A stretch of 64,000 bases of DNA from Xanthomonas sacchari. Its GTDB lineage: Bacteria; Pseudomonadota; Gammaproteobacteria; Xanthomonadales; Xanthomonadaceae. Under the pieces are notes generated by a model that was not told the DNA's origin, made no database searches, and saw nothing but the letters and a program-made list of their open reading frames with translations. Positions 43,739-46,659 of this stretch are shown piece after piece (position 1 is the first letter of the stretch; every line of letters starts with the position of its first letter). The stretch lies in contig NZ_CP132343.1 of assembly GCF_040529065.1 (NCBI RefSeq), positions 4,605,001-4,669,000 on the forward strand, given 5' to 3'. The translations under genes were made by a program, and so were the position numbers.

Positions 43739-44260
43739 ATGAAACTGCGCCTGATCTGCGCCGCTGGACTGCTGGCCGCACTGGGCGGCTGTGCCACCTA
43801 CGACTACGCCGGAGGCGGTGAGGGTGGCTACTACCGTGGCGCGCCCTCGGTCGAATACCGCTATCCGCCCGGTTACTCCGAGTACTACTCGCCGTACGGC
43901 GCCGTGCCCTATTACGGTTACGGCCCGGCCTACTACGGCTACTACGGGTACGGGGTGCCGTATTACTACTATCGCGGCTACGACGGCCCGCGCCACCGCC
44001 CGCCGCCGCGCCCGCGGCCGGACGACGGCGGTTCGGCACCGCCGCCGCCGCCACCCAGCGTCGGCGGTCGGGTGCCGTCGCCCTGGCGCAACCTGGACCG
44101 CCTGCGCCGTCCGGACGCGCTCAATTCGACGCCGCGGCCGCAGTCGATGCAGCCGCCGCGCCCGGCGATGCAGCGCCCCGAGGGGGTCCAGCGGCCGCCC
44201 GCACCGCGCCCCGGCAATATGGGACGCAGCAATGGGACACGTCGCACACTCGAACCCTGA
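43739..44260 (+). CDS. Tyr/Gly/Pro-rich lipoprotein
   Basis: A 173-residue exported lipoprotein: signal sequence MKLRLICAAGLLAALGGC with the lipobox LGGC, so lipidated Cys18. Residues 25-80 are extremely Tyr/Gly-rich (YYGYGPAYYGYYGYGVPYYYY), then a Pro/Arg-rich stretch with a run of six Pro, and an Arg/Pro-rich tail. The composition suggests a flexible, wall- or surface-interacting protein; function is unknown. It is divergent from the dehydratase. Confidence 0.72.
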   Translation: MKLRLICAAGLLAALGGCATYDYAGGGEGGYYRGAPSVEYRYPPGYSEYYSPYGAVPYYGYGPAYYGYYGYGVPYYYYRGYDGPRHRPPPRPRPDDGGSAPPPPPPSVGGRVPSPWRNLDRLRRPDALNSTPRPQSMQPPRPAMQRPEGVQRPPAPRPGNMGRSNGTRRTLEP

Positions 44261-44427
44261 GAAAGGGCTTGCGTTCGCCTGTCCCAGCACGCACTCTACG
44301 TCCTACGGGGTGACCGCCTGCGTCGCTTTATGACCCGAAGGGGTTGACCCCACCGTCTATGTCGATGTCCGGCAGGGAAATCTGGATCCCCCCTGTTCCG
44401 GCCCTGTCGGGCGTCGGCGCCTCACAA
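44261..44427. other. Non-coding stretch after the lipoprotein gene
   Basis: Between the lipoprotein stop and the first terminator hairpin there are about 170 bases without a supportable gene. Further right, up to mnmG at 44770, the sequence holds two hairpins and the predicted small RNA listed separately. Confidence 0.45.
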
Positions 44428-44457
44428 CGAAAAGCCCCGGTCCGCCGGGGCTTTTCG
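44428..44457. terminator. Bidirectional intrinsic terminator
   Basis: CGAAAAGCCCCGG-TCCG-CCGGGGCTTTTCG is a 13-base perfect stem with a tetraloop. The outer A4/T4 pairs supply a short U-run in either direction. It probably ends the lipoprotein transcript from the left and backs up the leftward RNA from the right. Confidence 0.8.
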
Positions 44458-44512
44458 CGTTGGGGCCTTGTCATTGCTGGCGCGGCGCCGGCAACCGGCG
44501 AAAGACGGGCAT

Positions 44513-44546
44513 AAAAAAGGGCCGGTAGTCCCCCGACTACCGGCCC
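44513..44546 (-). terminator. Intrinsic terminator of the predicted small RNA
   Basis: The minus strand reads a 12-base perfect GC-rich stem with a GGGG tetraloop (44519-44546), then TTTTTT (44518-44513). This is a textbook Rho-independent terminator and works only leftward. Confidence 0.88.
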
Positions 44547-44629
44547 CCAGCTCCCCCAACGTGCGCGTGACTGGCCCCTGTTCCAATTCCAGTCATACGC
44601 CCCTGACGCATTGCCACGTTGGGTGCAGT
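44513..44629 (-). ncRNA. Predicted sigma-54-dependent small RNA, about 115 nt
   Basis: On the minus strand, a start expected near 44629 (12 bases after the -12 GC) leads into an RNA with an outer stem CCCAACGTG/CACGTTGGG (44615-44623 with 44555-44563). Inside is a stem TGACTGG/CCAGTCA extended by GCG/CGC (44565-44574 with 44589-44600). A terminal 12-base stem GGGCCGGTAGTC/GACTACCGGCCC with a GGGG loop is followed by six U. Loops are G-rich and contain several GGA and GGGG motifs. No reading frame is apparent. It lies antisense to the upstream leader region of mnmG. I do not recognise the family. Confidence 0.65.
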
Positions 44630-44638
44630 AGGAATATC

Positions 44639-44655
44639 TGCAGATTGCGTGCCAA
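44639..44655 (-). promoter_or_regulatory. Sigma-54 (-24/-12) promoter
   Basis: The minus strand reads TTGGCACGCAATCTGCA. The GG and GC dinucleotides are separated by exactly ten bases, and the sequence differs from TTGGCACG-N4-TTGCA at one position. No protein gene lies downstream on this strand for 500 bases, only the structured RNA. The enhancer-binding protein is not identified. Confidence 0.75.
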
Positions 44656-44691
44656 CTTGAGGCCCGGATCTGCAATTTGTGATGCAACCGC

Positions 44692-44697
44692 TAAAAT
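44692..44697 (+). promoter_or_regulatory. Probable -10 element for mnmG
   Basis: TAAAAT is 73 bases before the mnmG ATG in otherwise GC-rich sequence. No convincing -35 is seen. If used, the mnmG transcript would begin about 75 bases right of the sigma-54 RNA start, so the two divergent promoters are about 50 bases apart. Confidence 0.35.
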
Positions 44698-44769
44698 TCC
44701 TGTTCACACCCTGGGCGACCCGCCGTGCCGCCCCCTGCCGCCGGCCCCGCGCCGGCCGACGAGACCCCG

Positions 44770-46659
44770 ATGAGCGACTCTTTCTACCGCCATGACGTGA
44801 TCGTGATCGGCGGCGGCCATGCCGGCACCGAGGCGGCGCTGGCGTCCGCGCGCGCCGGCGCCCGCACCCTGCTGCTGACCCACAACGTGGAGACGGTGGG
44901 GGCGATGAGCTGCAACCCGGCCATCGGCGGCATCGGCAAGGGCCACCTGGTCAAGGAGATCGATGCGCTGGGCGGGGCGATGGCCCACGCCGCGGACCTG
45001 GCCGGCATCCAATGGCGCACCCTCAACGCGTCCAAGGGCCCGGCGGTGCGCGCGACCCGCTGCCAGGCCGACCGCAGCCTGTACCGCAGCGCGATCCGGC
45101 GCCTGGTCGAGGCGCAGCCGAACCTGACCGTGTTCCAGGCCGCGGTGGACGACCTCGTGATGGACGGCGAGCGCGTGCGCGGCGTGCTGACCCAGACCGG
45201 GCTGCGTTTCGAGGCGGCCGCGGTGGTGCTGACCGCCGGCACCTTCCTGGCCGGCAAGATCCACATCGGCCAGACCCAGTACGCCGGCGGCCGCGCCGGC
45301 GATCCGCCGGCCACCGCGCTGGCGCAGGCGCTGCGCGACGGCCGCTTCGGCGTGGACCGGCTCAAGACCGGCACCCCGCCGCGCATCGACGGGCGCAGCC
45401 TGGACTACACGGCGATGGAGGAACAGCCCGGCGACGATCCGCTGCCGGTGATGTCGTTCCTGGGCGAGGTGGCGCAGCATCCGCGCCAGGTGTCGTGCTG
45501 GATCACCCACACCACCGAGCGCACCCACGCCATCATCCGCGGCGCGCTGGACCGCTCGCCGCTGTACACCGGCCAGATCGAAGGCATCGGCCCGCGCTAC
45601 TGCCCCTCGATCGAGGACAAGGTAGTGCGCTTCGCCGAGAAGGCCAGCCACCAGATCTTCGTCGAGCCGGAAGGCCTGGACGTGGTCGAGATCTATCCCA
45701 ACGGCATCTCCACCTCGCTGCCGTTCGATGTGCAGCTGGAGCTGGTGCGTTCGATCCGCGGCTTCGAGCGCGCGCGCATCACCCGCCCCGGCTACGCCAT
45801 CGAGTACGACTTCTTCGACCCGCGCGGGCTCAAGGCCTCGCTGGAGACCAAGGCGATGCCCGGGCTGTTCTTCGCCGGGCAGATCAACGGCACCACCGGC
45901 TACGAGGAAGCCGCTGCGCAGGGCCTGATCGCCGGCCTCAACGCCGCGCGCCAGGTGCGCGGGCTGGAGCCGTGGTCGCCGCGCCGCGACCAGGCCTACA
46001 TCGGCGTGCTGATCGACGACCTGATCACCCATGGCACCAGCGAGCCGTACCGCATGTTCACCAGCCGCGCCGAGTACCGGCTGCAACTGCGCGAGGACAA
46101 CGCCGACGCGCGTCTGACCGGCATCGGCCACGACCTGGGCATCGTCGACGAAACGCGCTGGGTCCGCTTCCAGGCCAAGCAGGAGGCGGTGGCGCGCGAG
46201 AACGAGCGCCTGCGCGGTCTGTGGGCCACGCCGGGCAACGCGCTGGGCCGCGAGGTCGCGGCCACGCTGGGCGTGGCGGTGAGCCGCGAGACCACCGTGC
46301 TGGACCTGATCAAGCGCCCCGAACTGGACTACGCCGCGCTGATGCGGGTGCCGTCGCTGGGTCCCGGCGTGGCCGACGCGCAGGTGGCCGAGCAGGTGGA
46401 GATCGGCATTAAGTACGCCGGCTACCTGGACCGCCAGCGCGAGGAGATCGCGCGCCAGCAGCGCCACGAGGACACCCCGATCCCGGCCGCCTTCGACTAT
46501 GCGCAGGTGCGCGGGTTGTCGGCCGAAGTGCAGCAGAAGCTCGAGCGCGTACGCCCGCAGACCGTGGGCCAGGCGCAGCGCATCCCCGGCATGACCCCGG
46601 CGGCGATCTCGCTGCTGCTGGTGCATCTGGAGCGGGCGCGCCGCAGTCGGGTGGCGTGA
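44770..46659 (+). CDS. mnmG: tRNA uridine-5-carboxymethylaminomethyl modification enzyme MnmG
   Basis: With MnmE, modifies U34 of certain tRNAs. The 629-residue FAD protein has the dinucleotide motif [19 protein letters not shown] near residue 10, [21 protein letters not shown], the two GidA signatures ([11 protein letters not shown] region; [21 protein letters not shown]) and a C-terminal helical MnmE/tRNA-binding domain. ATG 44770 ([12 protein letters not shown]) is chosen over an upstream ATG at 44725. It is followed by a REP hairpin with a T-run that can terminate it. Confidence 0.96.

Follow-up and report, generated by a model that had tools for sequence, protein, structure and literature searches.

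The window analysed here, i.e. the whole 64,000-nt stretch of Xanthomonas sacchari DNA, carries on its plus strand the mnmG (gidA) gene (44770..46659; Pfam GIDA, PF01134, E 1.3e-167), which starts at 44770 (or 44725) and reads away from a small RNA gene on the minus strand at 44512..44625. Beyond the 3' end of this RNA lies a second, convergent element on the plus strand (44354..44433), and a small Tyr-/Pro-rich protein, a putative lipoprotein that matched no Pfam family at E 1e-5, is encoded at 43739-44260 (+). The small RNA was not recognised in the initial annotation. An Rfam scan matched it to asX1 (RF02235) at 44625-44512, with a score of 117.8 bits as compared to the gathering score of 70, and over the full length of the model (positions 1-115). 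Judged by this covariance model match, the RNA is the known Xanthomonadaceae sRNA asX1, of which the genome of the window has one copy. Its start probably lies at about 44628-44625, as estimated from promoter spacing.

Relatives were compared using 127 fetched loci, one per genome and including that of the window, which do not comprise every asX1 match and of which L001 is a duplicate of L006. Wherever distinct sequences are counted below, identical ones have been omitted, leaving 110 of the 127 asX1s, 106 of the 122 rows of the convergent element and 62 of the 64 rows of the asX1 alignment A2. The mnmG N-terminus was divergent from asX1 and located within 600 bp of it in 119 of the 127 loci. 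The mnmG ATG lay at a median distance of 142 bp (n=116), and in the window asX1 lies 145 bp before it. In one rearranged locus (L034, genome G237), mnmG is downstream of asX1 and the convergent element upstream. The RNA had initially been described as antisense to the mnmG leader. Since the two genes are divergent, such an overlap requires a long mnmG leader, which could in principle exist; the hexamer ATTTTA, a possible reversed mnmG -10 element, was present between mnmG and asX1 in only 45 of the 127 loci. The name asX1 reportedly suggests that its discoverers classed the RNA as antisense. However, in addition to the divergent gene order, a terminator candidate at 44430-44455 precedes the asX1 3' end on the plus strand, and we consider it very unlikely that asX1 acts in cis as an antisense RNA, be it against the mnmG leader or against long transcripts of the plus strand.

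The asX1 of the window is about 114 nt long and carries a GC hairpin and a U-tail (U6) at its 3' end. Its predicted fold comprises a closing stem of 9+2 pairs, two inner hairpins of 7 and 6+2 pairs, and a terminator hairpin of 14 pairs; the stems of nine, ten and twelve bases reported initially were thus near the mark, though not exact. In the consensus structure 95.1% of the cells were paired (alignment A2, 64 sequences, 62 distinct). The covariance comparison of these stems that the initial annotation had proposed showed changes on both sides in 20 of 25 pairs, a value reached in 0 of 500 shuffles, thereby bearing out its description of a structured small RNA. The first inner hairpin kept just one consensus pair, and the fixed positions of the RNA were mostly in loops. 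The central loop GGAACAGGGG (44575..44584, minus strand) reads GAACAGGGG in 86 of the 110 distinct asX1s and GAACAGGG in a further 19. A second CAGGGG, in the first hairpin (44600..44605, minus strand), was not retained in every genus. The terminator hairpin (44517..44548, minus strand) is predicted to present a G-rich loop, GUC-GGGG-GAC, ahead of the U-tail; a run of at least 4 G occurred in the middle of this hairpin in 107 of the 110 distinct asX1s, and 103 had at least three such runs. A small ORF was considered as well and rejected, as the 19-codon ATG frame of the window is not kept, the relatives having GTACGA on inspection.

ANGGA is the core motif of RsmA/CsrA, and titration of a protein of this type had been suggested for the RNA at the outset. 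GGA triplets do occur in asX1, most often four per RNA. ANGGA, however, was missing from 89 of the 110 distinct asX1s, present once in 18 and present twice in 3, so that the multiple exposed ANGGA motifs of CsrB/RsmY-type RNAs were not found among them. Moreover, eight loci (L071, L074, L076-L079, L084 and L085) have lost the GGA next to the central loop and yet retain GAACAGGG. These counts disfavour the suggestion, and titration of RsmA/CsrA by asX1 appears extremely unlikely.

Upstream of asX1, TTGGCACGCAATCTGCA at 44655-44639 on the minus strand shows the exact GG-N10-GC spacing of a sigma-54-type promoter, reading TTGGCACG-CAAT-CTGCA (44639..44655). When up to one mismatch was allowed, the 64,000-nt window contained 3 matches to the sigma-54 motif against 1.82 expected, and at least 3 were obtained in 27 of 100 shuffles; the sole exact match in the window was the asX1 site. 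Taken alone, without its conservation, the motif is only suggestive. TGGCA-N6-NTGC was located 27-30 nt upstream of asX1 in all 127 fetched loci, where base-composition arithmetic gives about 0.1 chance site over all 127 upstream stretches together. Because the Rfam asX1 model spans the RNA only, the upstream DNA served as an independent test of the promoter, and the motif was judged to be real because it is conserved in 127/127 loci. The sigma-54 promoter recognised initially by its spacing therefore holds as a sequence feature. This conservation strongly supports a sigma-54-type promoter before asX1, from which we infer that its expression is sigma-54-dependent. CrcZ/NrsZ of Pseudomonas resemble asX1 in being intergenic small RNAs with a sigma-54 promoter, but belong to another lineage, and the asX1 of the window differs from them in its G-rich loops and in showing no A-rich Hfq/Crc motifs on inspection. 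A CRP/Clp-like TGTGA-N6-TCACA sequence was also observed between mnmG and asX1 in 7 of the 127 loci (L017, L020, L022-L025 and L028) and in 0 shuffles.

RpoN (PF04552) was present in 195 of the 198 genomes drawn from the family, the exceptions being G332 (99% complete), G320 (82%) and G358 (86%). G332 and G320 were likewise without asX1, whereas G358, with no RpoN detected, has asX1; the joint loss of RpoN and asX1 thus comes down to one near-complete genome, G332. In that 2.3 Mb genome none of RpoN, asX1, the convergent element and the sRNA sX13 was found. In the eight genomes of another genus (g91), RpoN and sX13 were detected, and asX1 and the convergent element were both not found.

Six near-complete small genomes having asX1 (G405, G416, G427, G246, G289 and G130) each gave two or three strong matches to sigma-54 activators, and one kind of activator, the sole such kind, was common to all six. 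G427 has only this activator and one more that lacked a close match among the proteins compared. The survey covered seven genomes besides that of the window, with G338 (81% complete) set aside, and the activators L206, L219 and L220 were classified by Pfam match only. A histidine kinase adjoins the common activator (tested with Pfam for L202 and L203), a pilin lies beside the copy L211 and a prepilin peptidase beside L208. Its C-terminus we take to be PilR-type, and from this and the neighbouring genes the common activator is probably PilR. Among the NCBIfam matches of seven activator proteins there was no PilR model, and none of the matches was above cut-off. No PilR- or NtrC-like sites were found upstream of asX1 with general consensus sequences for such sites.

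The convergent element was spotted while searching for copies of the asX1 loop, as the sequence GGAACAGGGGGGATCC, which lies on the same strand as asX1 and 25-297 nt beyond its end in 124 of the 127 loci. On the plus strand it is predicted to form a hairpin (44361-44418) with a 5' arm at 44361..44377, a 3' arm at 44402..44418 and a near-invariant 16-nt loop, GGATCCCCCCTGTTCC, at 44384..44399, for which the consensus is GGAUYCCCCCUGUUCC, one position being C or T in the family. The 16-letter pattern was present downstream of asX1 in 122 of the 127 loci, and L021 and L028 differ from it by one letter each. The element was not in the fetched flank of L034 (rearranged), L086 (contig end) and L115 (element 0.9 kb off), and a covariance model of it (R1) matched in the genomes of these three loci (G237, G254 and G359, respectively). 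An A/T-flanked GC hairpin at 44430..44455 (+) is a candidate terminator of the element and, being symmetric, could serve both strands; at L103 no terminator was seen on inspection. A peptide-coding element was considered and rejected, since the reading frame is broken across genera.

When the stem was read on the plus strand, 1380 cells were Watson-Crick, 242 G-U (79 of them from one pair) and 14 A-C, as compared to 1312, 156 (a single pair contributing 106) and 75, respectively, on the minus strand. As the plus reading has fewer A-C cells, the RNA would be a plus-strand transcript convergent with asX1; the strand can be read from the alignment, and transcription of the element is presumed from it. 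Among 64 distinct rows (alignment A3), 15 of 18 pairs had changed on both sides, with 0 of 500 shuffles as high, and 15 of the 16 loop positions were unvarying, although part of this invariance is selection because the rows were chosen by GGAACAGGGGG, which makes up 11 of the 16 loop letters. Twenty loci found later by the covariance model keep the 16-letter loop, with L296 short by one C. A further sequence, GTC-N7-GAC (GTCGCTTTATGAC; 44322..44334, plus strand), lies upstream of the element or in the 5' part of its RNA. It was conserved in 108 of 122 loci of the family as against 5.5 expected from shuffles, mostly with a TGAC half-site in front, and could be the site of a regulator or a small hairpin; in 101 distinct rows its pair 4-10 gave 37 G-U and 2 A-C combinations and its pair 5-9 hardly pairs.

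Rfam scans over the convergent element matched no family. The sX13 model (RF02232) did not match over 44300-44800 at E up to 1, nor at its gathering score. The element is absent from Rfam 15 and was not met in literature text searches, which cannot query by sequence. Model R1 matched in 185 of the 198 family genomes and in 167 of 299 genomes drawn from the order, comprising 79/79 of the family of the window and 88/220 others, mainly of one further family (f12) at about 40-50 bits. In a draw of 274 genomes from the class, the three genomes with a match were all of the family of the window. The element was present in all 173 family genomes with an Rfam asX1 match, and 12 further genomes have it without detectable asX1.

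In the window, the asX1 loop GGAACAGGGG is perfectly complementary to CCCCUGUUCC of the convergent loop. The longest match between asX1 and this loop was 9-10 nt in 119 of 122 loci and 6-7 nt in the other 3, while shuffled asX1 reached 9 nt in 5 of 610 cases. With opening costs included, the duplex was calculated at -10.41 kcal/mol, a value that 6 of 1000 random 155-nt pieces of the genome equalled. The promoter motif, the two structures, the strand on which the element is read, the complementarity and the co-occurrence are all legible in the compared genomes, and together they suggest that asX1 and the convergent RNA may be a pair binding each other. Qrr RNAs are sigma-54-driven sRNAs that pair with mRNAs, and asX1, with its several exposed conserved motifs, might in the same way be a direct sigma-54-induced regulator of mRNAs acting through its G-rich loops, leaving the convergent hairpin as an unrelated RNA or DNA element. 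The co-occurrence and complementarity with this neighbour argue against such a reading, and we regard it as quite unlikely. In three genomes, CCCCTGTTCC was found in 21, 15 and 6 copies, with 1, 4 and 5 for the reversed control; since composition alone predicts about 20 copies in the genome of the window by arithmetic, enrichment of GGAACAGGGG is not clear. In three genomes, AACAGGGG-N3-10-ATG, taken as a signature of mRNA targets of the convergent RNA, gave 15, 5 and 9 occurrences, one of the nine being the element itself, against 0, 0 and 2 for the reversed control; no two of the proteins concerned matched between these genomes.

The convergent RNA shares its design, a C-rich apical loop on a stable stem, with the sRNA sX13 (RF02232). 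The two are not homologous by Rfam; sX13 has three such hairpins, whereas the convergent RNA has one, beside mnmG, with a near-invariant 16-nt loop. sX13 was found in 189 of the 198 family genomes, in 153 of them above the Rfam cut-off, and its loops carry CCCC(C), as read in 28 of 30 loci, the other two being of insufficient length, and in 40 more that were retrieved by position. In Xcv, according to the part of the report available, sX13 represses G-rich mRNAs and needs G-rich targets, and when it is deleted, 14 genes for type IV pili are expressed more strongly (PMC3771888). The same part makes no mention of asX or RpoN and uses neither of the terms sponge and decoy. The initial annotation had suggested pairing with C-rich-loop RNAs such as sX13; this is supported in kind, but the best candidate partner found was the convergent element, with sX13 a possible one. 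The sum of three contacts between asX1 and sX13 was -12.7 kcal/mol, a value that 20 of 1200 random segments equalled or bettered, and the best single contact was -5.69 kcal/mol, equalled by 102 of 1200 random segments.

It could be argued from these data that asX1 serves as a sponge for sX13 and nothing else, in which case the convergent hairpin would have some other role and the shared motif would be incidental. The prevalence of sX13 and its CCCC(C) loops, the three or more G runs in 103 of 110 distinct asX1s, the summed contacts and the need of sX13 for G-rich targets are all in line with this. On the other hand, 102 of the 1200 random segments equal the best single contact, and GAA is kept before CAGGGG without a counterpart in the sX13 loops, yet pairs with the convergent RNA. 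We consider a sponge restricted to sX13 unlikely, and prefer the reading in which the convergent RNA is a partner of asX1.

Twenty further loci were examined, comprising 13 from family f12, two from f3, three from f11 and two divergent members of the family of the window (f1). The sigma-54 motif preceded the hairpin on the same strand in 17 of the 20, and in those of the further loci that were inspected it was followed by an asX1-like RNA whose loop contains CAGGG(G). An asX1 model (R2) matched 15 of the 20 at E up to 1, and 13 of these at 0.02 or below. In the 15 loci scored for complementarity, the asX1-like loop matched the convergent loop over 6-7 nt in 13 and over 9 nt in 2; L280, L289, L290, L291 and L294, with the promoter beyond range or none, were left unscored. 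As 13 of these 15 loci match over only 6-7 nt, conservation of the convergent loop cannot be put down to asX1 alone. In the three f11 loci (L290, L291 and L294) the convergent element is present without a sigma-54 motif before it, and the element therefore seems to be wider spread and to have a role of its own. It looks as if the convergent RNA does its own work and asX1 acts as its modulator. As separate observations, the same three f11 loci carry a second CCCCCTGA motif on the plus strand after a further inverted repeat, and a second sigma-54 motif was seen in 13 of the 20 loci (L279-L283, L285, L287-L289, L292, L293, L297 and L298), 217-406 nt beyond the hairpin start in the direction of asX1; at L279 a 71-aa ORF follows it.

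We propose that asX1 is a sigma-54-dependent decoy RNA capturing the C-rich loop of the convergent RNA, and perhaps sX13 as well, a proposal for which the arguments are close to evenly balanced, with slightly more room for doubt than for belief. asX1 would be turned on by a sigma-54 activator, perhaps PilR, which regulates type IV pili, and the central hairpin of asX1 would expose GGAACAGGGG for a loop-loop contact with CCCCUGUUCC of the convergent RNA. The latter, with its sX13-like design, presumably binds G-rich ribosome-binding sites, and its capture by asX1, perhaps along with that of sX13, would relieve this repression. Because the convergent RNA shares the design of sX13, asX1 would free G-rich mRNAs of the sX13 type, and may do so when pili are needed. 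Within this scheme, sigma-54 dependence, transcription of the convergent RNA, its pairing with asX1 and the direction of control are proposals, as are the choice of activator and the targets. A more extended picture, doubtful as a whole, is that of a module beside mnmG, shared by several families within one order, in which PilR and sigma-54 induce asX1, asX1 kisses the convergent RNA, and both together with sX13 set the translation of mRNAs with G-rich leaders, e.g. those for type IV pili.

Decoy RNAs and sigma-54-driven sRNAs are known kinds of system, and the present arrangement is a variant of them. GlmY and GlmZ are under sigma-54 control. As far as the available descriptions go, that pair and the one described here are alike in joining a decoy RNA to a partner RNA with a sigma-54-type promoter, but GlmY decoys the protein RapZ, whereas asX1 and its putative partner have complementary loops and adjacent convergent genes. 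The asX1 RNA itself was already known: in the passages available, it is among the ncRNAs of X. campestris genomes, with expression detected in pv. raphani (PMC4652430), and in Xylella it was found in cells and not in vesicles, sX13, asX1 and sRNA-Xcc1 being linked there to virulence with citation of papers from 2011-2012 (PMC12189769). The accessible portions of the literature on asX1 describe neither a sigma-54 promoter nor a partner nor a mechanism, and the assignment of the sigma-54 promoter is, as far as can be seen, new.

Many genome annotations list asX1 by name, and the sigma-54-type promoter found universally in the loci checked points to its sigma factor. The neighbouring RNA, with its near-invariant complementary loop, offers a testable partner for it. 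If true, the arrangement would provide a route from sigma-54 to a sponge acting on C-rich sRNAs, in addition to an RNA element that Rfam 15 does not contain.
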